Source: Bacteroidales bacterium
GTDB lineage: Bacteria > Bacteroidota > Bacteroidia > Bacteroidales > UBA3824
DNA length: 64,000 nucleotides
Assembly (NCBI GenBank): GCA_017412115.1
Contig: JAFPYR010000090.1
Coordinates: 1 to 64,000, forward strand
Direction of reading: 5' to 3'
Under the pieces are notes generated by a model. That model searched no databases. It saw nothing but the letters and a program-made list of their open reading frames with translations, and was not told where the DNA came from. Positions 1,890 through 27,627 of this stretch are shown one piece after another. A program made the translations under genes and the position numbers. How positions within the stretch are numbered: position 1 is the stretch's first letter; each line of letters opens with the position of its first letter.

Positions 1890-2561
1890 TCAATTAAATT
1901 CCATATAGACATCGTAACTTATGTATCTGCCACCCATTGATTTTAAATGCGGAGTAGAAAACTGACAGTCGATAATTGTCGGATTATCAAATTCTTGCAA
2001 CAATTTAGAAAGATAAACCAAAGCAATTTTTGAAGTTCCGGGCTCCAGAGAAAACATACTTTCGCCACAAAAAACACTTTCCACCATCACCCCGTAAAGT
2101 CCGCCGCAAAGTTTATCTTCTTCATTCCAAACTTCAACACTGTGAGCATAGTTCAATCGATGAAGTTTTTTGTATGCTTCAAGCAATTCACCGCCAAGCC
2201 AAGCTCCCTGATATTCAGCTCTTAATTTACTACAATTATCAATTACATCATCAAAAGCAGTATCAAAAGAAACTTTGTATTTGCGTTTGTTTAAAATCGT
2301 TCGCAAAGAATGAGATTGATGAATTTCTTTTGGAAAAATTACAAATCTCTGCATCGGACAATACCACAAAATCTCCGATTTGCCGTCCTCAGTAAAAAGA
2401 TACGCATCTTCCGCTTTGAATGGAAACCACGGAAAAATACCGTGTTGATACGCTAAAATTAACCTCTGAACACTCAAATCACCGCCTACAGCAAAGAGTC
2501 CATCCTCCTCCCCTCTCCTCGGATCAGGAAACCATATATCGTTATCTAATCTGACAATCAT
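1890..2561 (-). CDS. aat: Leucyl/phenylalanyl-tRNA--protein transferase
   Basis: Aat transfers Leu or Phe from charged tRNA to proteins with N-terminal Arg or Lys, tagging them for ClpS/ClpAP degradation in the cytoplasm. The 223 residues match the usual length. Family blocks are WFPDPRRGEEDGLFAVGGDL (10-29), HGIFPWF (40-46), FCGESMFS (164-171) and DCQFSTPHLKSMG near the C-terminus. Its ATG overlaps the stop of the Hsp70-like gene by four bases, so it is translationally coupled to the kinase/phosphatase operon as its last gene. A functional link to that operon is unproven. Confidence 0.95.
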   Translation of the reverse strand: MIVRLDNDIWFPDPRRGEEDGLFAVGGDLSVQRLILAYQHGIFPWFPFKAEDAYLFTEDGKSEILWYCPMQRFVIFPKEIHQSHSLRTILNKRKYKVSFDTAFDDVIDNCSKLRAEYQGAWLGGELLEAYKKLHRLNYAHSVEVWNEEDKLCGGLYGVMVESVFCGESMFSLEPGTSKIALVYLSKLLQEFDNPTIIDCQFSTPHLKSMGGRYISYDVYMEFN

Positions 2562-4072
2562 TGCATTACAGATATTTTTTTTACGATTCGGGTTCTGAAT
2601 CGCCCGATTTTTTTACCGCTGCGAAAAATATCCAAATCCACTTGAACCTCTTTTTGCCAAATCATAGCACACGGCTCTGCAATATCGCCCGGCATCAACG
2701 ACCTTCCGCTTGAAACAACTTTCAATTTACCAGGATTCAAAACTTCAAATTCTTGAAAAGCAGCACCTTTGCCCGGCGTAGGATCAAAAGTGTCAAGATA
2801 AATTTTCACTCCGGACTGCAATTGCGAAAGATTAACGTTTTCAACCTCACGATAAATTTTTTCTTGAGCAACGGGTTGTGAAATGTTTTCAACCTCAGGC
2901 TCCGTACCGGGCAAAAACATTGTAGAGTCTTCATCACACTGAGTAGAAACCTCATTTTCAGAGGGCAAAAAATCGAAAACTTCCATCAAAAAGTTCTCCG
3001 ACTCTTGAGTTGAAATATGCTGTAACTTATTGCCCGCCAAAGAATTAAACTCTTGCAAAATAGAGCGGTTGCCCAGCGGATTACCAACCAAAATTACATT
3101 TTCCAAACCGCTGATTTTAATATCGAACTCCGAGAGAAAACCGCTTGAAAAAAACGCAGAATATTGTCTCGAAATTTGATACGCCGTCTGACTCAAATCG
3201 TCAAAAGACAAAACAACCGAAATTTTATTACCCGGATTACAGGCAAAAACCGTTGAAATTTTAATCGTGCGTTTTTGAGTATTTTGTTCAAAATGACGGA
3301 TTACCGCCTCCGCTTTATCATAATGACGAATAATTTCAGCATTAATTTCTTCTGTATTGTCAGAATCGATAATATGTTCGGTAAGATTTACGGATTTAAC
3401 GATTTTTTCAGCGATAACCTTTACCATCGGGTCGATGCCGTAGCCTTTGAACTGACGGAAATTTTCACGTCTGAAAACTTTTTTATCGGCACTAACAACT
3501 GACATATTAAGATTGCAGCCTAATGCCTCCAAAACAGCAAAGCGTCTATCCTGACAAAACAGTCCGTTTTTCGATGCAAAATATTTAACTGCTAATGTAT
3601 CAGAGGTTTGAGTATTATTAATAGAAATATTTTTAGTCTTGAAATAATTGATGATTTTTTGCTTTGCTAAATCGGAAATATTGTCAGAAAAAACTCCGAA
3701 AGCATTAATCATAGTATTGTCATCGAAAGAAAAACTTTCAAAAACGCTTAATTTTTTATAATACAAATCCCTAACAGACTGTATTATACAATCAAAAAGC
3801 GTTAAATATCCCTGTTTTAAATCTCCGATTTCGTATTCGGCGTTTTCTTCTATATTTCTGATTAAATCGCCTAAATAAAGGTTTTGCCTATCACGGAAAT
3901 TTTTCTTGTAATCACCGCCAAAATCCGTTTGACGGCTGAAAGGATTAATCCTAAAATAAAAATAATATCTGTTGTCGTCAGTTGCCGACAAAATAGAAAA
4001 TTTGCCTTGAAACGGTTGCACTGCCGCCTGCAAATAATCATCGTTGAAATATAATGCTAAAAGTTTTTCCAT
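2558..4072 (-). CDS. Divergent Hsp70/actin-fold-like protein of unknown function
   Basis: I do not recognise a named family for this 504-residue protein. Two segments recall the Hsp70 actin fold: FAVLEALGCNLNMSVVS (178-194) sits where Hsp70 has its second phosphate loop, and GLENVILVGNPLGNRSILQE (322-341) resembles the 'I.xVVLVGG.SRIP.V' adenosine motif. The glycines and acidic residues needed for ATP hydrolysis are mostly missing, and there is no DLGTT at the N-terminus, so it may be a non-catalytic binding module. The C-terminal ~100 residues (after an acidic linker, about 375-400) look beta-rich, like an Hsp70 substrate domain. There is no signal peptide. It follows the PP2C gene by 20 bases and overlaps aat. 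I infer a cytoplasmic partner or substrate of the kinase. Confidence 0.6.
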   Translation of the reverse strand: MEKLLALYFNDDYLQAAVQPFQGKFSILSATDDNRYYFYFRINPFSRQTDFGGDYKKNFRDRQNLYLGDLIRNIEENAEYEIGDLKQGYLTLFDCIIQSVRDLYYKKLSVFESFSFDDNTMINAFGVFSDNISDLAKQKIINYFKTKNISINNTQTSDTLAVKYFASKNGLFCQDRRFAVLEALGCNLNMSVVSADKKVFRRENFRQFKGYGIDPMVKVIAEKIVKSVNLTEHIIDSDNTEEINAEIIRHYDKAEAVIRHFEQNTQKRTIKISTVFACNPGNKISVVLSFDDLSQTAYQISRQYSAFFSSGFLSEFDIKISGLENVILVGNPLGNRSILQEFNSLAGNKLQHISTQESENFLMEVFDFLPSENEVSTQCDEDSTMFLPGTEPEVENISQPVAQEKIYREVENVNLSQLQSGVKIYLDTFDPTPGKGAAFQEFEVLNPGKLKVVSSGRSLMPGDIAEPCAMIWQKEVQVDLDIFRSGKKIGRFRTRIVKKISVMQ

Positions 4073-4092
4073 TTTATTATCGTGAAAAAAAA

Positions 4093-4857
4093 CTATCCCA
4101 AATATCTGAAAATCACTGCCGTAATATTATCTTTACCGCCTGCCTCATAAGCCGAAGAGGTTAATTTTTCAGCCAAACCGTCGGAATTTTTCATCTCCTT
4201 AACAATTCTGAAAATCTGATTGTCGGTAAGAGCATCATGAACGCCGTCCGAAAAAGCCATCAAAATATCTCCCGCCTGCAACGGACGCGGCTCTGAAACG
4301 TCAATTTTCATCATGTTTAAATCCTGACCTATGGCTGAAGTCATAATATTACGTTTAGGATGCGTAAAAGCTTCTTCTTCAGTGATTTGTCCTGAATCCA
4401 AAAGTTGTTGTACGATAGAATGGTCATGCGTTTCGCGGCTCAAAACCCCGTCGCTGAAAAGATAAACCCGACTATCACCTATATTAATAGTGTAATAAAC
4501 ATTTCCGCTAACAAAAAATCCCGAAAGCGTTGTCCCGCAATTTTTGTACGAAGGGTCTTCAACGGATTTTTCCAAAACCTGACGCGCCGCTTCTTTTGCC
4601 GTCATAATCAAAAAATCCTTAACGCTCACCTCATTAGGCATATTGTTAAAAGCCTCGGAGAAAACATTAACGGTTCTTTGACTTGCAAAATCACCGTGTC
4701 CGTGTCCGCCGACACCGTCCGCAACAAAAATCAAACGCCTTAAATTTCTAACACCGGAAACATAAAAGCTGTCTTCTTGAGCTGGTTTGCGCCCCTGAAT
4801 ACTACTTGTTTCTACGACTTTGGCATTTGTCAGTATTTTTTTTAAAAGCGAAAACAT
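4093..4857 (-). CDS. PP2C-family protein serine/threonine phosphatase
   Basis: This 254-residue protein is a complete single-domain PPM/PP2C phosphatase (PrpC/Stp-like). Metal-binding and catalytic motifs are all present: RKPAQEDSFYV (23-33), ADGVGGHGHGD (46-56), GDSRVYL (127-133), SDGVHD (203-208) and GGKDNIT (240-246). There is no signal peptide or membrane segment, so it acts in the cytoplasm. It lies 8 bases downstream of the Ser/Thr kinase gene, the usual arrangement for a kinase and the phosphatase that reverses it. Likely substrates are the kinase itself and operon partners. Confidence 0.95.
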   Translation of the reverse strand: MFSLLKKILTNAKVVETSSIQGRKPAQEDSFYVSGVRNLRRLIFVADGVGGHGHGDFASQRTVNVFSEAFNNMPNEVSVKDFLIMTAKEAARQVLEKSVEDPSYKNCGTTLSGFFVSGNVYYTINIGDSRVYLFSDGVLSRETHDHSIVQQLLDSGQITEEEAFTHPKRNIMTSAIGQDLNMMKIDVSEPRPLQAGDILMAFSDGVHDALTDNQIFRIVKEMKNSDGLAEKLTSSAYEAGGKDNITAVIFRYLG

Positions 4858-4865
4858 AGTTTTTT

Positions 4866-6527
4866 TTAATTTTTTCTGTGGCTTAAATACCGTTTGTCGA
4901 TATAGCCCCGTTTACCCAAAGTTTTGACTTCGATGTATTGATACAAAACTTCGACTACTTCAACTTCTTGATTTTTAGAGCATTTCATTACGACTTTTCC
5001 GCCGACTTGTTCCAAAAGTTCGGTTTCGAGCTTAACATAAGCCTTATCACCGCGCGTAAATTCTTCTTGCAAAAGACTTTCGGTTGCCGAGGAAAAATTC
5101 GGAAATTTAAACCCGATTTTATACCATTTAATAAATCCTAATCCCAAAATCAAAAAAACAATTATCCACAGCAAAATTCTAAAAAGTTTTTTCATTGAAG
5201 ATTTTTCTTCAACTATTTGAGTGGAATTTTGCGAAAGCATTTGACGGCGACGTGCCTCTTCGTTGCGTTTTCGCTGAATCGCTTTTTCGATTTCATCGTT
5301 AATCATAGCCTCCACGATGTCTTTGTCGGCACCCGTTTTAGCTATTTCTTTATCTAATACAATTCTTTCGTTTCGTGTTATAACACCGTCTGCGGCATAT
5401 TCTTTTATCTTGTCTTCCAACCACTTAGGTATCGGAGAGGATACCGGCGTATAAGGCTGAACCATCAAAAGGTTGATTATTTCCTGACAATTTTGATATC
5501 TGTCTTGAGGCAAACTCATTGTAGCCTTGTCAGCAATCTCCCTAAAAACGGAATTCGTAATCAAAGGAAGCTTTCTTCTGTCGGGACTGCCCGCAAAAAT
5601 TTCCATTATAATCATTCCTAACGAAAAAATATCCGAGCGTTGATCCGCTTGAGAAGCATTTTTTTGTAGTTCGGGAGCGGCATATTTCGGCGTTCCGGCA
5701 TTTTTTAAAGTATCAACAACCGTATCGTCGGCAGCAAGCCCGAAATCTATGATTTTAACATTATCACCCTTGAAAGTTATCATTATATTTTCAGGTTTCA
5801 AATCACGGTGAAAAACCTGATGTTTGTGCATATATTGCAGACCTTCAAGGATTTGCATTACAATCGGAGTTATTTTCTGCGGTTTTATGTTTTCTTTGTC
5901 GGCAATAAAATCTTTCAGAGTCCTGCCATCAACATATTCCATATAATAATAAGGTCCGTTTTCGTCCTCGCCTTTACCGTAAAAATGCACGATATTAGGA
6001 CAATCAAGAGCGTAACCAGTATCAAACTCCTTGTAAAACAAGTCAATATAATTTTTATCGTTACGATATTTTTCTTTTATCCGTTTGATTATGACTTTTC
6101 TTCTTCCTAAATGAACGGCAGAATAAATGTCAGACATTGCACCCGAGGATTCAAGTTTTTTAATCTCGGTAAACTGCTGATTAAAATTTCCTGAATCAAA
6201 ATTAGCACCGCTGATAAAACCCGAAGCACTAGTGTCGTTTTCGGTTAAAAAGCCGGAGCCTGAATTTTCGTTTTCTGTTATAAATCCGGAACCCTCAGCG
6301 GGTTGTGCCGTCAAAAAGCCTGAACCTATTTCAGTAGGATATTCCGTATTAGAAATTCCCGTTGAAAATTTCAATTCAAGTTCTGCATGTTTGACAAGCA
6401 TAACAAACTGTCCGGCAGAAATTCCGATTTTTTGCGCCTCTGATAACAATTCGCTGCGCTTTGCCTCGGTCATTCCCGTCCTGACATACTGCTCTATCTT
6501 CTGTTTAAGTTGTTCAAAGTCAATCAT
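4866..6527 (-). CDS. Membrane Hanks-type Ser/Thr protein kinase with SH3-like extracytoplasmic tail
   Basis: This 553-residue kinase has five parts. Residues 1-53 form a small helical module. Residues 68-107 hold four 11-residue repeats built on SGF[LI][TS]. The kinase domain spans about 120-357, with VIIKR (Lys148), HRDLKPEN (240-247), DFG (261-263) and APE (284-286), so it is predicted active. A second helical module (about 368-412) resembles the first, with DGVITRNERIVLDKE against TGMTEAKRSELLSE. A membrane segment (451-468) is followed by an SH3-like domain (about 490-553, ending GYIDKRYLSHRKN) outside the cytoplasm. SH3-like tails often bind peptidoglycan or peptides, so it may sense the envelope. 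It is followed by PP2C at 8 bases and preceded by the coiled-coil lipoprotein gene. Confidence 0.92.
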   Translation of the reverse strand: MIDFEQLKQKIEQYVRTGMTEAKRSELLSEAQKIGISAGQFVMLVKHAELELKFSTGISNTEYPTEIGSGFLTAQPAEGSGFITENENSGSGFLTENDTSASGFISGANFDSGNFNQQFTEIKKLESSGAMSDIYSAVHLGRRKVIIKRIKEKYRNDKNYIDLFYKEFDTGYALDCPNIVHFYGKGEDENGPYYYMEYVDGRTLKDFIADKENIKPQKITPIVMQILEGLQYMHKHQVFHRDLKPENIMITFKGDNVKIIDFGLAADDTVVDTLKNAGTPKYAAPELQKNASQADQRSDIFSLGMIIMEIFAGSPDRRKLPLITNSVFREIADKATMSLPQDRYQNCQEIINLLMVQPYTPVSSPIPKWLEDKIKEYAADGVITRNERIVLDKEIAKTGADKDIVEAMINDEIEKAIQRKRNEEARRRQMLSQNSTQIVEEKSSMKKLFRILLWIIVFLILGLGFIKWYKIGFKFPNFSSATESLLQEEFTRGDKAYVKLETELLEQVGGKVVMKCSKNQEVEVVEVLYQYIEVKTLGKRGYIDKRYLSHRKN

Positions 6528-6552
6528 TTCTGTTTTTCCTATACCCTTTTTT

Positions 6553-7482
6553 TTATTTATCTAAGATAAAAGTATCATGTCCCTCTTTGCGATTCTCAAT
6601 AAAGAAATCCACGGTATATTTTCCTGCTGAAAGATTTTGAGTAGTTTTGTTCCACGTTACATTTTTAGAAATTTCACTGCCTTGATAATCTACCGTAGTT
6701 TTAACGGTGTAAGCAATTTGTTTGCCGTCGTATTCAAAATCACCTTCAGGATTTTGCAACAAATTGCCGCCCTCGTCAGTAATTCTGAAATATATATTAA
6801 TCGCACCTTTAGGAGCATCAGGATTTGCCTTTAATCTACAAATTATATTAAGAGACTGTATTTTTTTTGCTTTTCTTTCCTTGGGCTGAATAACTTTGAT
6901 AGAGCCGGTAATAATTGAAACTTTATTCGTTAAATCACTGACTGTTGTAGTTAATTCAGTATTCTCTTGAGTTAAATCGCTTACCTGAGTCTCAAGACCG
7001 CGGACTCTTGTTTTAAGTTCCGAGATTTCGGTTTGAGTTTGTTTTAGTTGCGCTTGTTTATCTTCTATTGAGGCAAACATAAGTTTTACGAGTTTTGACA
7101 TCGAAGCGTTTTTATAACCCGCATCCTGAAGCTCTTGCGCAAGTTCTTCGTTTTGAGAAATAAAACCGCGGATTTGATTGATATATGCTTGCAACTCTTT
7201 GTTTTGAGCACCCGTAGCTTTTCCATTTTTACGAATTACCACTTTCAAGGAATCAATTGATTTCTGAAAATGTTCAATACTATCCTGAATATTACCAAAC
7301 TGACTCAAATGCTTGTCGTAACTTATAAGAAGACTCGACTGCATACTGTCGCGTTTAACATATTCGTCTAAAATAGCATTTAGGCTGTCTATCTGATTAT
7401 CAGCAGTTTCCGAACCACACGAACAAAAAGTGGCAGTATAAATTGCCGAAACGACTATTAATAAACAAAAAATTTTATTCAT
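6553..7482 (-). CDS. Coiled-coil lipoprotein of the kinase operon
   Basis: The 309-residue protein starts with a signal peptide ending FCSC, with Cys22 the likely lipidated residue. A long coiled coil follows (about 28-190) with heptads such as TEISELKTRVRGLETQVSDL. The last ~100 residues are beta-rich (INIYFRITDEGGNLLQNPEG, GKYTVDFFIENRKEGHDTF) and look like an Ig-like domain. I know no named family. By position between a single-pass membrane protein and the membrane kinase, it could span the periplasm and pass a signal to the kinase tail. It starts 23 bases after the previous gene and ends 25 bases before the kinase. Confidence 0.75.
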   Translation of the reverse strand: MNKIFCLLIVVSAIYTATFCSCGSETADNQIDSLNAILDEYVKRDSMQSSLLISYDKHLSQFGNIQDSIEHFQKSIDSLKVVIRKNGKATGAQNKELQAYINQIRGFISQNEELAQELQDAGYKNASMSKLVKLMFASIEDKQAQLKQTQTEISELKTRVRGLETQVSDLTQENTELTTTVSDLTNKVSIITGSIKVIQPKERKAKKIQSLNIICRLKANPDAPKGAINIYFRITDEGGNLLQNPEGDFEYDGKQIAYTVKTTVDYQGSEISKNVTWNKTTQNLSAGKYTVDFFIENRKEGHDTFILDK

Positions 7483-7505
7483 ATTCTTTTTATGTATTAG
7501 TAATT

Positions 7506-8021
7506 TTATAATTGTACCAAATCTATTTTATAAGCATTATCGGTTTCGTCCTTGAAAATAATTTTTCCGGCAGATGTCCTATGAACCGAACCTTTGCCTA
7601 ACGGAACTTTTGAAATTTTCTCGTCAATGCTAAAATCAAAAGTATGGTTAAGGAAGTCAATATGACATTTGCACGCCGAGGCTATCGGAATAAAATCACA
7701 TTTCAAATCATAAACCATATATGTTTTGCCGTTTTCCTGATATATTTTTTTCACGGTAATCAAAACGCTTTTGCCGTCGTAATTACCTGAAAAAATGTGA
7801 ATTAAATCCTTTTCTTCAATCGGAATATTCTTTAATCCCGTGTATTTGCTGTCAGTAGTATTGCCGCTAAGACTCACAAATATAAAACCCGAAAGTATTA
7901 TAATTGCAAAAACGGCAATTAAAATATGAATAATTTTAGGTGTAAAAGACTTCTTACTCTCTGCAACAAGAGTCTTTTCTTCTTGTGTACTACCTATAGT
8001 GCTGTAATTGTTGTTATCCAT
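7506..8021 (-). CDS. Single-pass membrane protein, first gene of the kinase operon
   Basis: The 171-residue protein has a short cytoplasmic N-terminus (STIGSTQEEKTLVAESKK), one membrane helix (about 31-51, IHILIAVFAIIILSGFIFV) and a 120-residue beta-rich external domain with FSGNYDGKSVLITVKKIY and CKCHIDF. I recognise no family. The Ser/Thr-rich N-terminus ahead of the helix resembles the kinase's own tail and could be phosphorylated; this is inference. It is the first gene after the promoter at 8084-8113. Confidence 0.72.
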   Translation of the reverse strand: MDNNNYSTIGSTQEEKTLVAESKKSFTPKIIHILIAVFAIIILSGFIFVSLSGNTTDSKYTGLKNIPIEEKDLIHIFSGNYDGKSVLITVKKIYQENGKTYMVYDLKCDFIPIASACKCHIDFLNHTFDFSIDEKISKVPLGKGSVHRTSAGKIIFKDETDNAYKIDLVQL

Positions 8022-8083
8022 AATTAATTTCGTTACCCGTAGTTTTTTTGTTTTTTAGTTAATAACCGCATAAAAGTAAATTA

Positions 8084-8113
8084 CAAATATAAAACAAAAT
8101 ATTATTAAACAAA
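8084..8113 (-). promoter_or_regulatory. Promoter of the six-gene kinase operon
   Basis: On the minus strand TTTG (8113-8110), 18 bases, then TATATTTG (8091-8084) match the Bacteroidota sigma consensus TTTG/TAnnTTTG. It lies about 63 bases upstream of the first gene, in the divergent gap with the DUF1292 gene. Confidence 0.75.
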
Positions 8114-8216: not shown

Positions 8217-8534
8217 ATGAGCGAAGAATTACAAAACGAAGAAAATGAGATTGAAATTATCTCATTAAAAGACGAAGAAGGCAACGACCACGATTTTGAA
8301 ATCCTTGACGAACTCGAATACGAAGGTCAAAAATATTGCGCTTTGCTTCCTTATTACGAAAATCCTGACGATTTGGATTCCAAAACGGAAGAAGATACTG
8401 AAATTCTCATTCTTCATATTTACGAAGAAGACGGTGATGAAATTTGCGAAAGCATTGCCGATGAAGATCTTTTCGATAAGATTTCAGCACTTTTCGACGA
8501 AAGAATCGAAAAAATGTATGAAACTCAAGAATAG
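8217..8534 (+). CDS. DUF1292 family acidic protein
   Basis: This small, very acidic 105-residue protein has the DUF1292 (YrzB-like) pattern: IEIISLKDEEGNDHDFEILD, then YEGQKYCALLPY and EILILHIYEEDGDE, ending FDERIEKMYE. The family is cytoplasmic with no established role. It stands alone, divergent from the kinase operon, and is closed by a bidirectional terminator shared with recJ. Confidence 0.85.
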   Translation: MSEELQNEENEIEIISLKDEEGNDHDFEILDELEYEGQKYCALLPYYENPDDLDSKTEEDTEILILHIYEEDGDEICESIADEDLFDKISALFDERIEKMYETQE

Positions 8535-8596: not shown

Positions 8597-10351
8597 TTAG
8601 ATTCGTATATCCTTAATTCTCAATTGGATAGTTTTGTTATTTTTATACACGTTCAAATCTATCGTATAACAAATATCAAAAGGTTTTCCTGTCTTGATTT
8701 CTTGAATCAAATGACCCATTCCGAAAGCTATTCCGACCTTTGTAAAACCCGAATTATCAATTACTTCCAATCTTAAATGAGAATTATCCTTTCCGACGGT
8801 TTTTGAATTTAAATCCGTTACGCCGCAAGTTGAAAACACGGGCTCTGGATTTTCCGGTCCGAAAGGTTCAAACTGTTGAAGTTTTTCGTAAAAATCCAAC
8901 GTAATGGATTTAAAATCAAGCTCCTGCTCGATTTCTATTTTCGGTTTTTGTTGAGAAGAAAGTATATGATTTTTGACATAATTTTCAAAAGCCTGACGGA
9001 ATTTTTCAAAATTCTCGAATTTTAAACTCAATCCCGCGGCAAATTTATGACCGCCGAAAGCCGTTAAAAATCCCCGGCAACTGTCAATGGCATCATAAAG
9101 ATTGAAATCCGAAACCGAACGCGCCGAACCCGTCAAAATCTCGCCTACTTTAGAAAAAACTATCGTAGGACGAAAATAATGCTCCGTAAGCCTTGAGGCA
9201 ACGATTCCTACAACGCCTTTGTGCCAATTTTCGCCGAAAACAACGGTCGAGGTATTTTGCTGATTATCTTTGTCCTCAGATAAAATTTCAAGAGCGGATT
9301 CGGTAATTTTTCGATCCAAATCCTTACGGGTCTGATTATAAAAAGAAATCTCGTCAGAAAATTTTCTCGCCTCGCTAATATCCTCTGTTATAAGAAGTTT
9401 AACGGCATCTTTTCCGTAATGAATCCTTCCCGCCGCATTAATACGGGGACCAATCATAAAAACGGAATCAAAAATCGTTATTTTTTTGTCTTTCAAACCC
9501 GACTCCTCAATTATCGCTTGAAAAGACGTTAAAGGCTTGAGCTGAAATGTGTTACCCGAAAATTTAATTTCCTCACCGTTGAGTTTTTTCAATCCCCAAT
9601 ATGCTAAAATTCTGTTTTCGTCCACGATAGGCACGATGTCAGAACCGATGCTAACCGCCGTTAAATCAATATATTTGAGTAATCTTTCAAACGGAATATT
9701 CTGACGAATACAAAACGCCTGCATAAATTTGAAACCGACACCGCAGCCCGAAAGTTCGTTGAAAGGATACGTATTGTCAGAGCGTTTAGCGTCCAAAACG
9801 GCAACCGCCCGAGGCAATTCCAAACCCGGAGTGTGATGATCGCAAACGATAAAATCAATATTTTTGTAACGGGCATATTCAATTCTCGCATTGTCTTTGA
9901 TTCCGCAATCAAGAGCGATAATAAGATTGCAATGATTTTCAAAAGCGAAGTCCACGCCTTTGAAACTTACACCGTAACCTTCTGTGTATCTGTCTGGTAC
10001 ATAATAAAGCAAATGCGGATAAAATTCCCTCAAAAACGAATAAACTAATGCAACGGAAGTTGTTCCGTCCACATCATAATCGCCGTAAACGAGAATTTTT
10101 TCGTGTTTTTTCATTGCAAGAATAAGCCTGTCCACAGCCTTATCCATATCGTTGAAAAGAAACGGGTCGTGAAGGTTTTCTAATTTCGGACGCAAAAAAT
10201 TACGGATATTTTCCAACGAAAGTCCTACCCTCGAGGCTAACATCTTCGTTAAATGAACGTCTAAAAAATCGTTCATCTCAGAGCGTAATTTTTTTATATC
10301 ATCATCGCTAAAAGATTGATATTCTTTTATTTCCCAAACTTTTTCCGTCAT
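8597..10351 (-). CDS. recJ: Single-stranded-DNA-specific exonuclease RecJ
   Basis: RecJ degrades single-stranded DNA 5' to 3' in recombination and repair. The 584 residues fit the family. The DHH catalytic motifs are present: YGDYDVDGTTS (89-99), LDCGIKD (148-154) and VCDHHTPG (169-176). GPRINAAGRI follows in the middle of the protein, and the DHHA1 motif GGHKFAAGLSL lies further on. The C-terminal OB-fold half is complete. Its start overlaps the DUF2339 gene's stop by four bases, so the two are cotranscribed. Confidence 0.97.
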   Translation of the reverse strand: MTEKVWEIKEYQSFSDDDIKKLRSEMNDFLDVHLTKMLASRVGLSLENIRNFLRPKLENLHDPFLFNDMDKAVDRLILAMKKHEKILVYGDYDVDGTTSVALVYSFLREFYPHLLYYVPDRYTEGYGVSFKGVDFAFENHCNLIIALDCGIKDNARIEYARYKNIDFIVCDHHTPGLELPRAVAVLDAKRSDNTYPFNELSGCGVGFKFMQAFCIRQNIPFERLLKYIDLTAVSIGSDIVPIVDENRILAYWGLKKLNGEEIKFSGNTFQLKPLTSFQAIIEESGLKDKKITIFDSVFMIGPRINAAGRIHYGKDAVKLLITEDISEARKFSDEISFYNQTRKDLDRKITESALEILSEDKDNQQNTSTVVFGENWHKGVVGIVASRLTEHYFRPTIVFSKVGEILTGSARSVSDFNLYDAIDSCRGFLTAFGGHKFAAGLSLKFENFEKFRQAFENYVKNHILSSQQKPKIEIEQELDFKSITLDFYEKLQQFEPFGPENPEPVFSTCGVTDLNSKTVGKDNSHLRLEVIDNSGFTKVGIAFGMGHLIQEIKTGKPFDICYTIDLNVYKNNKTIQLRIKDIRI

Positions 10352-12342
10352 TTATCCTTAAAAAATTTTGAGTAAAGATACGAAATTAACAGGAAAATTC
10401 CGCCTTCCGTGAGAAAAATTACGGATTTTAATGCCAAAGATTGTTCCCAAGCATCGTAAAGAACTATTTTTAAGGCAGTTATGACAAAAATTGCAATTGA
10501 AGCATACCGTAAATGTTTTTTCTTGAGTTTGAATCCCACAACAAACAAAGCGGCCGCATAAACCGCAGCAAACAAACTCACTAACAATGATTTAATTTCC
10601 CTTTCAGAAAATCTCACCATAAATTCGTTCAAAAGGAAAAAGAGCAAAATAAGGCTCAAAACAAATTCCCTTGAAGCGTTATATTCTTCTTTCAACGAAA
10701 TTTTTAAGCTCACAACAAACGAAAGCAGGAAAACCGCAATTGAAAAAATTTCAACCGCCCTCGTACAGACAATTTCCGCTCTCAAACAAATAAAAATAAA
10801 TTCCAAAACTATCAGCAACGCCAAAAGCGGAATTTTGAAACTGTCATAAAATTTTATCTTCCTTAAAAAAAACAAACACGAAGAAAAATAAATCATTGAT
10901 ACGGAAATTTCCAAAATTCCATCGTTATTGCTGTTATAAAAGAAATTATGATTAATTGCAAAAATCAAGAGAAAAACTCCTAAATAAAATGCAGTTTTAG
11001 CATAAATTTCGTTTTTATAATCATAATACAGAAAAAAGTTCATCGCCGAGGCTATCAGCATTACAATAAAAAACGAATTTATAACGAACCTAAAATTCCA
11101 TCTGTCAGTAATACCAAGCAGTAAAATCGCGGACAAAAAGCTTAAAATCAAAATGCAGAACGAAAAATTTTCGTAAAAACGGTTTTGCTTTTTCTGACTC
11201 AAAAAATTAAAAGTATAAGCCTCAACAGCAAAAATCAAAAGTATAAGATGTTTTACATAATCCTTTAAAATCAGAAACGCAGCAAAATTAAACGTAAAAA
11301 CAATGAAATACAAATAATTATATTTAATACCGGGGCGCAAAAAAATCGCTAAAACATAGCACGAGGGAATTATCATCAAATACAATCCCGATTTCAAGGC
11401 TGTATTTGTATTAAGACAAATCCAAAATATTGTTATTAAAGTATTCAGCAGATTTAACACTAACATTTTTTTTGCGTCCCAAAGCGTAGAAAATGTCAAA
11501 AACAAAGCGAAAAACAGATAAAAAACAATAATATTTTTCATCATATCAGGCGCATCAAAAGCAGCAAAAATCAAAAAGTAATTAGTTATAATCCAAGAGA
11601 TTACAGCGGGAAAAGAATTCTTTTTTAAGAGAGAAACCGCTAAGGATAAAACCGAAAGCAAAAAAACAAATCCTATCCAAATCCAAAAATTAATTACCGT
11701 TAAGTAAAATCCCGCCCCTATCGGAGTAAAAAATATCAGCGGCAACGAGAACCCGAACAGCACAACCGAATAATGATATCCGACCGCACAAACAAAAAGC
11801 GCAATCAGTCCCGCAATAAAAAGGGATTGCGAGGAAGAAAAAATTTCAAAATAATGCTGCGAAACAAATGTCAGCGCATACGAAAAACCTACCGCTCCGG
11901 TAAAAAGAATTGACGAGAGAACTTTACGTTTTTCTTTGTTTTTATAAGAAAAAAACACCGAAACGACACTCAAAACATAGCCTAAAAAAACTTTAACGCC
12001 CGTTGAAAACAAATTTCTGTCAAACAGATATTTTACAAAAGCAATCAAACCGATGACCAAAATAATCACACCAATTTTTCCGATAAGATTTTGCGCCAAA
12101 AATCTCTCGGATATTTCTTGAGTCGCTTCTCTTGGAGGCGGAGTTTTTGTTGTGGAATTTTCCTCTGTCTGAGATACTTTTCTCAAAGGAACTTCTTCTG
12201 AACGCATTTTTCGTTTTAGGATTTCGATTTCTTTGTCAAGCTCAATCCTCTTTGATGCCAAGGCTGATAATTCCAAAGAAACTTTTTCCCTCTCCGACAA
12301 AAGCTCCTTTAAACAAGCCGTTAAATCTTTTTCATCGGTCAT
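10348..12342 (-). CDS. DUF2339 polytopic membrane protein
   Basis: The 664-residue protein starts with a cytoplasmic coiled coil (about 1-48, KELLSEREKVSLELSALASK) and a Pro/Thr linker. A large membrane part of many helices starts at IGKIGVIILVIGLIAFVKYL and runs to the C-terminus. This layout matches DUF2339, a conserved membrane family of unknown function. The coiled coil suggests contact with a cytoplasmic partner. It precedes recJ with a four-base overlap and follows the gamma-carbonic-anhydrase gene at 10 bases. Confidence 0.82.
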   Translation of the reverse strand: MTDEKDLTACLKELLSEREKVSLELSALASKRIELDKEIEILKRKMRSEEVPLRKVSQTEENSTTKTPPPREATQEISERFLAQNLIGKIGVIILVIGLIAFVKYLFDRNLFSTGVKVFLGYVLSVVSVFFSYKNKEKRKVLSSILFTGAVGFSYALTFVSQHYFEIFSSSQSLFIAGLIALFVCAVGYHYSVVLFGFSLPLIFFTPIGAGFYLTVINFWIWIGFVFLLSVLSLAVSLLKKNSFPAVISWIITNYFLIFAAFDAPDMMKNIIVFYLFFALFLTFSTLWDAKKMLVLNLLNTLITIFWICLNTNTALKSGLYLMIIPSCYVLAIFLRPGIKYNYLYFIVFTFNFAAFLILKDYVKHLILLIFAVEAYTFNFLSQKKQNRFYENFSFCILILSFLSAILLLGITDRWNFRFVINSFFIVMLIASAMNFFLYYDYKNEIYAKTAFYLGVFLLIFAINHNFFYNSNNDGILEISVSMIYFSSCLFFLRKIKFYDSFKIPLLALLIVLEFIFICLRAEIVCTRAVEIFSIAVFLLSFVVSLKISLKEEYNASREFVLSLILLFFLLNEFMVRFSEREIKSLLVSLFAAVYAAALFVVGFKLKKKHLRYASIAIFVITALKIVLYDAWEQSLALKSVIFLTEGGIFLLISYLYSKFFKDK

Positions 12343-24679: not shown

Positions 24680-26923
24680 ATGAAACACATTGTATATACG
24701 ACTATTTTATTAGTGTTTTTGTCTATAAATCTTCAGGCTCAAAACACTAAAGCTTTGTACCAAAAGGCTGACAGCCTCATTGAGGTAAGAGATTGGAAAA
24801 ATGCCGTTCTTTTTACGGACAGCATTTTGAATTTTTATAACGTTAAAACGGATTCTGCATATCAAAAAGCAATAGTAGCTAACACCAAATACGCCAATAA
24901 TTTAAGTTTTACGGACGAAATGTGTATAAAATGTCTTAACAAAAGCCTTGAATACACTAAAATTTTAAATAAACCGAATTCTGTTCTAAAAGTATATATC
25001 TATATTTTAAACACTTACTACCAAATAGGAAAATCCTACAAAGGCATACAAGTTTTTGAAGAGGCTTTCTCGTATTTTCTTTCTCACGAATGGCTCAACA
25101 ACTACAATTATGCGGATTTTTTAATGTTAGGCGGTGATTTATACAGAAGTAACTGCAATTATAATCAAGCACTTAAATATTACAAAGAAGTTTTGAAATA
25201 TGCCACAAACACCTCTGAGGCAACCCTTTATATTTCTTCCACCCAAAAAATCATTGACATTCTTCAACGCACCGGTTTTGACGTTCAGCAAATAGAATAT
25301 TACAAGGATTTAACGGTAAGAAAACACAACGAACTTGTTAAAAACAAATTAAACAGATACAATACCGACGGAAAATATTATTATTTCTTAGTGAATTATT
25401 ACAAATTCTTAAAACAATACGACAAAGCCTTAATCTATTGGGATTCAACCGTTAATGCCATAGACAAATTTCTTGACCAAAGGGTGGAATTAGACCCTGA
25501 CTTCAATCGCAACGATTACCTTAATATTGAAATTTGGGATTATGACGAAAGAATCATATTGCTTTGGAAAAACGACAATAAAAAAGAATTTTACAGACTT
25601 CTTTCGCTCATTGATACCAAGTTTAAAAACGAAATACGACTCAACACCGCTGAATTTTGTCAGCACGGCGGCGAATATTGTTGCAAGGATTTCGATTTCA
25701 AAAAAGCAGAACAACTCTATCAAAAATCCAATGAAATCTTAAAAGCAATCCATCAAGATACCTCTCTTATAGCTTTTCAGAATTATAACGGTCTGCTTAA
25801 CTGCAATCTTGCATTAAAAAAATATACCAAAACCGACAATTATATTTCAGAGGCTGAAAAACTTATCCCGCTGATTTTCAACTCCGAAAAAAATACAGAC
25901 GTAATAGCTTATTACGAAAACAAAGGTTTTGTAAAATATTTTTCGGGCGATAAAACCGCTTTGGAAAAAAATTTAATCAAAAGTGCGAGGCTAATGAGCG
26001 AAATTGTCAAAGAAAACTTCGGCTATCTCAACTCTGAGGCTTTGGCTCAATATTGGTCGAAATTGAAAGAAACATGTTCTAAAATTTTGACGGCAGCAAT
26101 CATTCTCAACGGCAATTATTCCAAGGAATTTGCGGAAAAAGTTTATCAAACCTCCGTCGGACAAAAAAACATCAATTTCATCTCGCAAAACCGTTTGCAC
26201 AAGGTAGCTAAACTCTCGATAGAACTCGAAAACAATTATTTTGAACTCATAACTTTAAAACGTAAACTTTTTGAGACTCAAGAGATTTTGTCGCCGCAAG
26301 AAAAAGCGGAAATCTACGTACTTATCAAAATCTACGAAAAAAGTCTGAGCGATTATTTCGACGAAACCGTTACGGAAGCCTTTTCTACTGATTTTCAGAA
26401 GATTAAATCAGCATTAAAAGATGGTGAAATTGCCGTAGAATTTACCGAAGTTTATCAATACGATGATGCTTTTATACATTCACATTCAGAATATTGCAAT
26501 TACGATTATGTTGCCCTTGCTTTCAGTAATCAGTCGGAGCAACCGCTTATAATTCCGCTTTTTAGCAGCAAAGAATTGGAAAATTTCAAACTCGAAAATT
26601 CCAAACTGTTAAAAGAAACCTTAACAGAGCGCACTCCTGAAGGTATTTCGTCGATTTATTCTGACAAAAATTTAACGGATTTTATATGGAAAAAAATTTT
26701 GGACAAATTTCCTTCCGTAAAAAAAATATGGTTTTCGCCCACGGGTTATCTTTATTCGTTAGCCTTGGAAAATCTTAAATGCGACTCTTTGAAAACGATG
26801 TCTGACATTTATAAAATGATTAGAATTTCTTCAACTTCAAATATCACGGCAAATGTAAGTAGCGAAAATTTTGATTTTTCAAGCATTGCGCTCTTTGGCG
26901 GTATTAATACGACATGGATATAA
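24680..26923 (+). CDS. TPR-CHAT protein, N-terminal part (frameshifted)
   Basis: The first 747 residues hold a signal peptide (ending LQAQ), a TPR-like helical array (about 22-470) and the start of a CHAT (caspase HetF-associated with TPRs) domain with AVEFTEVYQYDD, KKIWFSPTGYLYSLALENL and SSIALFGGIN. The frame then ends with TTWI and a stop. The CHAT catalytic half continues in the next frame from 26914. Adding one base after 26908 reads GGINYDMDINRQ and joins the halves into a protein of about 980 residues. This is a real frameshift, a programmed one or a sequencing error. A full-length product would be an exported caspase-like peptidase. Confidence 0.8.
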   Translation: MKHIVYTTILLVFLSINLQAQNTKALYQKADSLIEVRDWKNAVLFTDSILNFYNVKTDSAYQKAIVANTKYANNLSFTDEMCIKCLNKSLEYTKILNKPNSVLKVYIYILNTYYQIGKSYKGIQVFEEAFSYFLSHEWLNNYNYADFLMLGGDLYRSNCNYNQALKYYKEVLKYATNTSEATLYISSTQKIIDILQRTGFDVQQIEYYKDLTVRKHNELVKNKLNRYNTDGKYYYFLVNYYKFLKQYDKALIYWDSTVNAIDKFLDQRVELDPDFNRNDYLNIEIWDYDERIILLWKNDNKKEFYRLLSLIDTKFKNEIRLNTAEFCQHGGEYCCKDFDFKKAEQLYQKSNEILKAIHQDTSLIAFQNYNGLLNCNLALKKYTKTDNYISEAEKLIPLIFNSEKNTDVIAYYENKGFVKYFSGDKTALEKNLIKSARLMSEIVKENFGYLNSEALAQYWSKLKETCSKILTAAIILNGNYSKEFAEKVYQTSVGQKNINFISQNRLHKVAKLSIELENNYFELITLKRKLFETQEILSPQEKAEIYVLIKIYEKSLSDYFDETVTEAFSTDFQKIKSALKDGEIAVEFTEVYQYDDAFIHSHSEYCNYDYVALAFSNQSEQPLIIPLFSSKELENFKLENSKLLKETLTERTPEGISSIYSDKNLTDFIWKKILDKFPSVKKIWFSPTGYLYSLALENLKCDSLKTMSDIYKMIRISSTSNITANVSSENFDFSSIALFGGINTTWI

Positions 26924-27627
26924 ACCGTCAAAAAGAAATTGCAGGAAAGTACTTTTCAAAAGATAAATCACGTTATTGTCTTCGACAGCAAATTCCCGAA
27001 AACACTTCAGAATACAAATATTTGAATGCCGCTTATGAGGAATGTGATTATGTTTTGAAAAAAGCCAAGGATAAAAACGTTACATTTTTTTACGGAGATT
27101 CTGCCGTTGAAGAAAGTTTTAAATACTGTGTCCTAAAACGCCCTGAAATTATTCACATTGCCACGCACGGTTTTTATGACGAATATTTTTCGGGTGAAGA
27201 CGAGCTCAACGCACCGCTTTTTTCTTCGTCATTGGTTTTTGCCGGTGTTAACAACTATATGAAAAACAAAGACATACCGCAAAACATTGACGATGGTTTT
27301 CTCTCAGCAATGGAAATTTCGGAATATGACCTTTCAAATACTAAACTTGCCGTTTTGTCGGCGTGCGAAACGGGATTAGGATTTGTAAATTCCGACGGAA
27401 TTTTCGGGCTTCAAAGAGGTTTTAAACTCTCAGGAGCACAATCGGTTTTAATGAGCCTTTGGAGCATTTCTGACGAGGCTACCTCCATTTTTATGAGGAA
27501 ATTTTACGCATCGCTTTTAAGCGGAGAAACGCCTCACCAATCTCTTAGGATTGCCACTGATTATCTAAAAGAAGGCAACAGATTTTCGCACCCGTATTAT
27601 TGGGCAGGATTCGTATTAGTAGAATAA
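26914..27627 (+). CDS. CHAT (caspase-like) peptidase catalytic part, out of frame with its N-terminal half
   Basis: The 237 residues carry the catalytic half of a CHAT domain. His85 lies in HIATHGFYDE and Cys151 in LSACETGLG, the expected dyad of this clan CD (caspase/separase-like) fold. The fold ends with SGAQSVLMSLWSISDEAT and HPYYWAGFVLV, all well conserved. The ATG used here is an internal Met of the full protein and lacks a clear ribosome-binding site, so it is probably not an independent start. Conserved catalytic residues argue that the frameshift is recent or artefactual. Its 3' end overlaps the opposite-strand Fic-like gene by 31 bases. Confidence 0.85.
   Translation: MDINRQKEIAGKYFSKDKSRYCLRQQIPENTSEYKYLNAAYEECDYVLKKAKDKNVTFFYGDSAVEESFKYCVLKRPEIIHIATHGFYDEYFSGEDELNAPLFSSSLVFAGVNNYMKNKDIPQNIDDGFLSAMEISEYDLSNTKLAVLSACETGLGFVNSDGIFGLQRGFKLSGAQSVLMSLWSISDEATSIFMRKFYASLLSGETPHQSLRIATDYLKEGNRFSHPYYWAGFVLVE

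Follow-up and report, generated by a model that had tools for sequence, protein, structure and literature searches.

The operon and its signals

The 64,000-nt window analysed here, positions 1 to 64,000 of contig JAFPYR010000090.1 of a Bacteroidales bacterium (GCA_017412115.1), contains between positions 1890 and 8113 a cluster of six verified open reading frames (ORFs), all located on the minus strand, to which all coordinates of the cluster given below refer. They code, in this order, for a membrane protein, a lipoprotein, a Ser/Thr kinase, a PP2C-type phosphatase, an Hsp70-like protein and Aat. The Hsp70-like protein looks like a pseudo-Hsp70 (HSP in the gene orders below) with a beta domain of its own, judging from its predicted structure and its replaced nucleotide-site motifs, and it represents a family that neither Pfam nor NCBIfam contains.

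The gaps between consecutive genes are 23, 25, 8 and 20 nt, and the HSP gene and aat overlap by 4 nt; from this spacing we infer that the six genes are transcribed together. A Bacteroidota-type promoter, TTTG-N18-TATATTTG, with a perfect match, lies 5' of the first gene, that of the membrane protein (8084..8113). The whole window contains 20 promoter-type sites versus 4.9 expected by chance. In 10 of the 11 relatives examined, the -7 box TATATTTG is again present close to the first gene's start; its seemingly downstream location at one locus, L023, is an artefact of an automatic ORF start set too far upstream. A strong terminator-like hairpin is present past aat (1328-1369), and no hairpin of comparable strength was found in the interior of the operon. 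The initial annotation of this DNA had listed six closely spaced or overlapping genes in this order behind one promoter, and the ORF coordinates, gaps and promoter match agree with it.

The kinase and the phosphatase

The Hanks-type Ser/Thr kinase (4866..6527; 553 aa; Pfam Pkinase E 1.5e-43) has a single transmembrane segment, placed by hydrophobicity at residues 448-466 (5130..5186). In its catalytic domain, delimited by Pfam and alignment to residues 121-352 (5472..6167), the VAIK lysine K148, the alpha-C glutamate E167, the HRD motif H240-R241-D242 and the DFG motif D261-F262-G263 are invariant in ten sequences. A helical module of ~50 residues occurs on either side of the domain, the first copy at residues 4-53 (6369..6518) and the second at residues 366-416 (5280..5432); their hhalign comparison gives 18.3, versus at most 13.7 over 60 column-shuffles. 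The first module and the kinase domain are separated by a stretch with four SGF[ILV] repeats (6207..6323), whose number varies among the kinases of relatives (SGF[VIL]). The best NCBIfam match, PknB_PASTA_kin, covers the kinase domain only and scores 181 bits, where the cut-off is 450, and a Pfam scan detected no PASTA repeats. The predicted extracytoplasmic tail (~residues 490-553; 4869..5060) is conserved in the alignment of relatives and resembles SH3b, with a sub-threshold match to Pfam SH3_3 (E 0.23). Of the kinase with an external SH3-like tail proposed initially, the kinase is thus secure and the tail weakly matched.

The PP2C-type phosphatase (4093..4857), likewise named in the initial annotation, is recognized by Pfam PP2C_2 (E 1.5e-14) and as Stp1-like (E 2.1e-59). 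Its metal-binding motifs DGVGG, GDSR, SDG and DN are intact, with their Asp columns invariant in 13 sequences; the best NCBIfam match is Stp1/IreP, below the cut-off.

Two other loci of the same genome are worth mentioning. On contig C72 (L039:1153-3126) there is a paralogous kinase with the helical module at its start and four SGFVTAE repeats, with neither PP2C nor pseudo-Hsp70 adjoining. Contig C102 (L118:2835-7247) carries genes for an FHA protein, a PP2C and a kinase in a row, another Ser/Thr system.

The pseudo-Hsp70

Sequence models of Pfam and NCBIfam, as well as phmmer against the PDB, gave no Hsp70 match for the 504-aa product of the fifth gene (2558..4072), and none of 18 members of its family matches a Pfam model, PF00012 included, at E 0.01. 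Its AlphaFold2 model, built from 19 sequences, is confident (mean pLDDT 85.6) and is matched to Hsp70s by Foldseek with E down to 7e-20. In VIA comparisons, residues 1-371 (2960..4072) align with Hsp70 nucleotide-binding domains at Z ~24-26 over ~348 residues, with an rmsd of 4.3-5.4 and 9-14% identity; Ssz1/RAC, DnaK and Hsp110 are among the top matches. When the family profile is aligned by hhalign with DnaK from the same order, the register over residues 119-355 is consistent with this (E 5.8e-5). The earlier description as a divergent Hsp70-like protein is therefore confirmed by the predicted structure (Z ~25) and by no sequence model.

The phosphate-binding motifs are altered: GIDLGTT (P1) and DLGGGTFD (P2) of DnaK correspond to ALYFNDD and EALGCNLN, P2 being placed from the hhalign register and P1 from a side-by-side reading of the N-termini. 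Since both motifs are replaced, canonical ATP hydrolysis is unlikely. The alteration is comparable to that in Ssz1, itself one of the top structural matches; Ssz1 functions without hydrolysis.

The nucleotide-binding fold is followed by a linker (residues 369-404) predicted to be disordered (pLDDT ~30), which contains the linear motif DEDSTMF (residues 380-386; 2915..2935) with Thr384 as a candidate phosphosite. The acidic-Thr-x-Phe motif is kept in 15/15 members from the genus, and its T-M-F form is also found in six distant genomes. The pattern [DE][DE]xTMF occurs one to four times per genome, and a genus-wide scan for other proteins with it revealed no recurring partner of evident function. 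On sequence grounds, the threonine of this motif is the best candidate for the kinase site. A strict tie between the TMF motif and an adjacent kinase was considered and rejected, as the distribution of the motif among genomes does not match it. In phospho-Thr switches of the GarA/OdhI type a threonine in an acidic motif of a disordered region is phosphorylated by a Ser/Thr kinase; they differ from the pseudo-Hsp70, which has no FHA domain, and the parallel serves as a lead only.

The C-terminal beta domain (residues 405-504; 2561..2860), with the motifs PGKG, SxR and FRTR, is the best conserved part of the protein and folds confidently when modelled alone (pLDDT 96). Among 198 genomes of the order it was found inside the pseudo-Hsp70 only. 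Comparison with the PDB gave no clear match (Foldseek E >=0.057, VIA Z <=6.3); the weak similarities to PDZ, galectin and EndoMS, all with Z <=6.3, are not trusted. No substrate-binding domain is among the hhalign, Foldseek and VIA matches listed for this domain, such absence from a list not amounting to exclusion. Its identification as a substrate-binding domain found no support: full-length Foldseek matches span both domains but with an rmsd of 13-22 Å, no such match is found for the domain alone, and hhalign gives a chance match of 21 columns. Lid helices are absent from the AlphaFold2 model. The client-binding Hsp70 of the initial annotation thus finds no support, either in the C-terminal domain, with no detectable resemblance to a substrate-binding domain, or in the replaced P1 and P2 motifs.

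The envelope proteins

The first two products of the operon were described initially as a membrane protein and a coiled-coil lipoprotein, in agreement with the one hydrophobic segment found in each and the lipoprotein-like signal of the second. The 171-aa one-pass membrane protein (7506..8021) has its hydrophobic segment at residues 33-51, followed by a predicted periplasmic C-terminal domain, and matches no Pfam family. Its homologues in two relatives carry an additional N-terminal helical module resembling that of the kinase; this shared module suggests a contact between the membrane protein and the kinase. The coiled-coil protein (6553..7482) has a hydrophobic segment at residues 4-22, a signal resembling those of lipoproteins (FCS|C) and, at its C-terminal end, a conserved beta-like domain, and its gene is kept adjoining that of the kinase in relatives. 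A paralogue of its C-terminal part adjoins an MMPL-type exporter on contig C50 of the same genome (L120:3236-6483), and the same pair is present in G009 (L121).

Conservation of the module

Of 18 genomes of the genus, 16 carry the core of five genes, from the membrane protein to the pseudo-Hsp70, either entirely or partly; it is absent from two, one of which is 97% complete. Wherever the contigs allow reading, the order lipoprotein-kinase-PP2C-HSP is constant, and the membrane protein precedes the lipoprotein in seven genomes. The tight kinase-PP2C-HSP order is maintained throughout the genus though the HSP sequence diverges to ~33%. At the 15 loci where the gene following HSP can be read, it is the DUF2339 gene in 11, recJ in two and aat in two. 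These counts define the conserved unit as (membrane protein)-lipoprotein-kinase-PP2C-HSP-(DUF2339)-(recJ).

The product of aat (1890..2561) is a clear leucyl/phenylalanyl-tRNA--protein transferase (Leu_Phe_trans E 1.7e-59; TIGR00667 E 6.9e-46, 156.2 bits, above the cut-off of 143.55). Its gene follows HSP only in the window genome and in its 95%-identical sister G014, and is located elsewhere in 14 of the 16 genus genomes having an aat match. This synteny led us to reject Aat as a functional member, and with it the N-degron link proposed initially; aat is probably a co-transcribed passenger outside the conserved module. Conservation of gene order, the check put forward with the initial annotation, accordingly holds for five genes and fails for aat.

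In the window aat occupies the downstream slot, and the DUF2339-recJ pair is found upstream of the operon, beyond a divergent DUF1292 gene (8217-8534). The DUF2339 gene, coding for a multi-pass membrane protein (10348..12342, minus strand), is thus displaced relative to the other loci of the genus. In one subclade an ECF sigma factor gene replaces the divergent DUF1292 gene (L027:12278-12826 and its equivalents at other loci). Past aat, positions 1330-1890 contain no long ORF but, besides the hairpin, apparent coding remnants. Farther away, at 24680-27627, what seems to be a single TPR-CHAT protein is split over the overlapping frames 24680-26923 and 26914-27627, possibly by a frameshift or an assembly error, judging from the translation.

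In a draw of 393 genomes from the order, members of the HSP family turned up in 11 of 206 genera; among 395 genomes of the phylum, one besides the window's own had a member. Its named records come from metagenome-assembled genomes of Bacteroidales and other Bacteroidota, many of them rumen-derived, and the carriers of the operon are gut and rumen Bacteroidales. Outside the genus, PP2C immediately precedes HSP in G034 and G052, and in G093 the order is PP2C-HSP-kinase with the kinase on the opposite strand; in other families HSP has neither a kinase nor a PP2C beside it. The link with PP2C is therefore recurrent, not universal. In G052 the pair is located beside ftsZ, ftsA and murC, named from their translations, that is, in a cell-division neighbourhood (L080:300-8932). 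In G093 (L086:986-9566) and G687 (L087:368-6877) the pseudo-Hsp70 gene comes, in one cluster, after a tubulin-like gene, in G687 with a weak Tubulin_2 match (E 4.3e-6), and a gene for a protein of ~1200 residues that has no Pfam match; such clusters may represent a second kind of system using this Hsp70 family.

Relation to known systems

The combination had been thought new and without a description. However, in Escherichia coli the annotated locus yegD (Hsp70), yegI (kinase), (yegJ), pphC/yegK (PP2C) and yegL (vWA) also joins an Hsp70-family protein, a membrane Ser/Thr kinase and a PP2C, and yegD-yegI-pphC-yegL has been discussed as a kinase/phosphatase pathway (PMC13232886). That paper, with reference to Rajagopalan et al. 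2018 and 2020, states that PphC dephosphorylates YegI. The E. coli locus differs in having yegD on the opposite strand and a vWA protein, YegL; its annotation shows neither a lipoprotein nor an SH3b tail. YegD matches DnaK well in hhalign (98.8%, E 6.5e-17) and the pseudo-Hsp70 hardly (E 0.44), and it was rejected as an orthologue of the latter; the likeness is therefore one of composition, not of Hsp70 descent, and the Hsp70 parts of the two loci look separately recruited.

The PknB/PrkC-Stp pairs likewise comprise an active kinase with one transmembrane segment and an extracytoplasmic sensor tail, and an adjoining PP2C. Unlike them, the present operon has no PASTA repeats; its kinase has the SH3b-like tail, the SGF repeats and the flanking helical modules, and the envelope proteins and the pseudo-Hsp70 are added. 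With the Hsp70 family, including its atypical members Ssz1 and Hsp110, the pseudo-Hsp70 shares the nucleotide-binding-domain fold (~348 residues, Z ~25); it differs in the altered P1 and P2 and in having no recognizable substrate-binding domain, lid or PF00012 match. The TerY-P triad (vWA, PP2C, kinase) also has a kinase and a PP2C side by side. A Pfam scan of the six proteins of the operon and of those encoded nearby gave no match to a vWA protein of the TerY-P or YegL type. Of the initial picture, the kinase/phosphatase core, the two envelope proteins, the Hsp70-fold protein and the lack of a vWA gene have held up, with conservation in the genus. Clusters of kinase/PP2C/vWA and clusters of HSP70/tubulin have also been described, with GAP1-N2 GTPase systems (PMC7159879). 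The likeness lies in the clustering of Hsp70 with kinase/PP2C and in the tubulin-like neighbour of two distant homologues, but no GTPase or vWA gene is seen in the present operon. A literature search on Hanks kinases of Bacteroidetes and Hsp70 pseudo-chaperones found nothing, and one on DUF2339 found passing mentions only.

Possible mode of action

The reading that we favour, tentatively and at somewhat less than even chances, is an envelope-responsive kinase/PP2C switch in which the pseudo-Hsp70 is a phospho-controlled adaptor or scaffold. The kinase would be anchored in the inner membrane with its SH3b-like tail outside, where the one-pass protein and the lipoprotein would be its partners, tuning its activity. 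When active, it would phosphorylate the pseudo-Hsp70, its main client, at Thr384 of the disordered linker, and the PP2C would strip the phosphate off. The pseudo-Hsp70 would then act as an adaptor and do no ATP-cycling chaperone work: phosphorylation may expose or withdraw the C-terminal beta domain, the putative effector, which would then bind a target. The best candidate for the target is the DUF2339 membrane protein, the usual next gene. The more specific proposal, that phosphorylation of Thr384, in the linker joining an Hsp70 fold without hydrolysis to a novel beta domain, gates the contact with a target in the envelope, for instance DUF2339, is possible, if on the doubtful side.

The switch is supported by the presence of the module in 16/18 genomes of the genus in a constant order, by the PP2C-HSP neighbourhood in three lineages outside the genus (G034, G052, G093), and by the invariance of the kinase residues and PP2C motifs. 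Further support comes from the Hsp70 fold with its replaced, Ssz1-like P1 and P2, from the linker motif kept in all 15 genus members and, as T-M-F, in six distant genomes, and from DUF2339 as the next gene at 11 of 15 loci. Several observations weigh against it. G190, G086 and G053 have the motif with no adjacent kinase, and G093 has an adjacent kinase and no motif; most distant pseudo-Hsp70 genes have no kinase adjoining. The membrane protein was not detected in G003, G013, G016 and G017, and in G002 and G008 DUF2339 does not follow the pseudo-Hsp70.

The best alternative, itself unlikely, is that the kinase and PP2C are a general, many-target Stk/Stp pair like PknB/PrkC, the pseudo-Hsp70 being a housekeeping adaptor that shares their transcript and is perhaps no substrate at all. 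The best NCBIfam matches of the two enzymes point this way, both below their cut-offs, as does the isolated position of the pseudo-Hsp70 in most other families; the kinase-PP2C-HSP order held in the genus despite the divergence of HSP, the PP2C-HSP adjacency in the three other lineages and the conserved linker motif argue against it. Rather improbable is a pseudo-Hsp70 acting upstream, as a cytoplasmic scaffold for the kinase and phosphatase or as a regulator of the kinase, and not as the output. Pseudo-enzymes often serve as scaffolds, and the linker of the pseudo-Hsp70 of G073 has a stretch, SSGFTVEE, resembling the SGF repeats of the kinases, but this stretch is found in that one relative only.

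A chaperone-type system, in which the pseudo-Hsp70 binds nucleotide and clients and is linked to Aat and N-degron turnover, as the initial annotation had it, is very improbable: the Hsp70 fold and the 4-nt overlap with aat are in its favour, but aat lies elsewhere in most genomes, the nucleotide motifs are replaced, and neither similarity of the C-terminal domain to the substrate-binding domain of DnaK nor lid helices are detected. Least probable of all is an anti-phage or conflict system, as proposed for some kinase/PP2C/Hsp70/tubulin clusters, since the matches of PADLOC kinase profiles are limited to the generic kinase domain and a coiled coil, with no system-specific protein and so no support from PADLOC, and the locus is carried by almost all genomes of the genus, often beside recJ and with no defence genes seen alongside, even if two distant homologues adjoin tubulin-like genes as in the GTPase-tubulin-HSP70 systems (PMC7159879).

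If the more specific proposal of gating through Thr384 is correct, the pseudo-Hsp70 would be a bacterial kinase readout built on an Hsp70 scaffold in place of an FHA domain. Sequence rarely reveals what a bacterial Ser/Thr kinase acts on; here one operon encodes a kinase and a phosphatase together with candidate sensors and a possible substrate marked by a single threonine, which makes the circuit directly testable. The family itself, covered by neither Pfam nor NCBIfam, has an Hsp70 fold seemingly stripped of its ATPase residues, and the parallel with the yeg locus suggests that Hsp70-fold proteins have joined kinase/PP2C pairs more than once.

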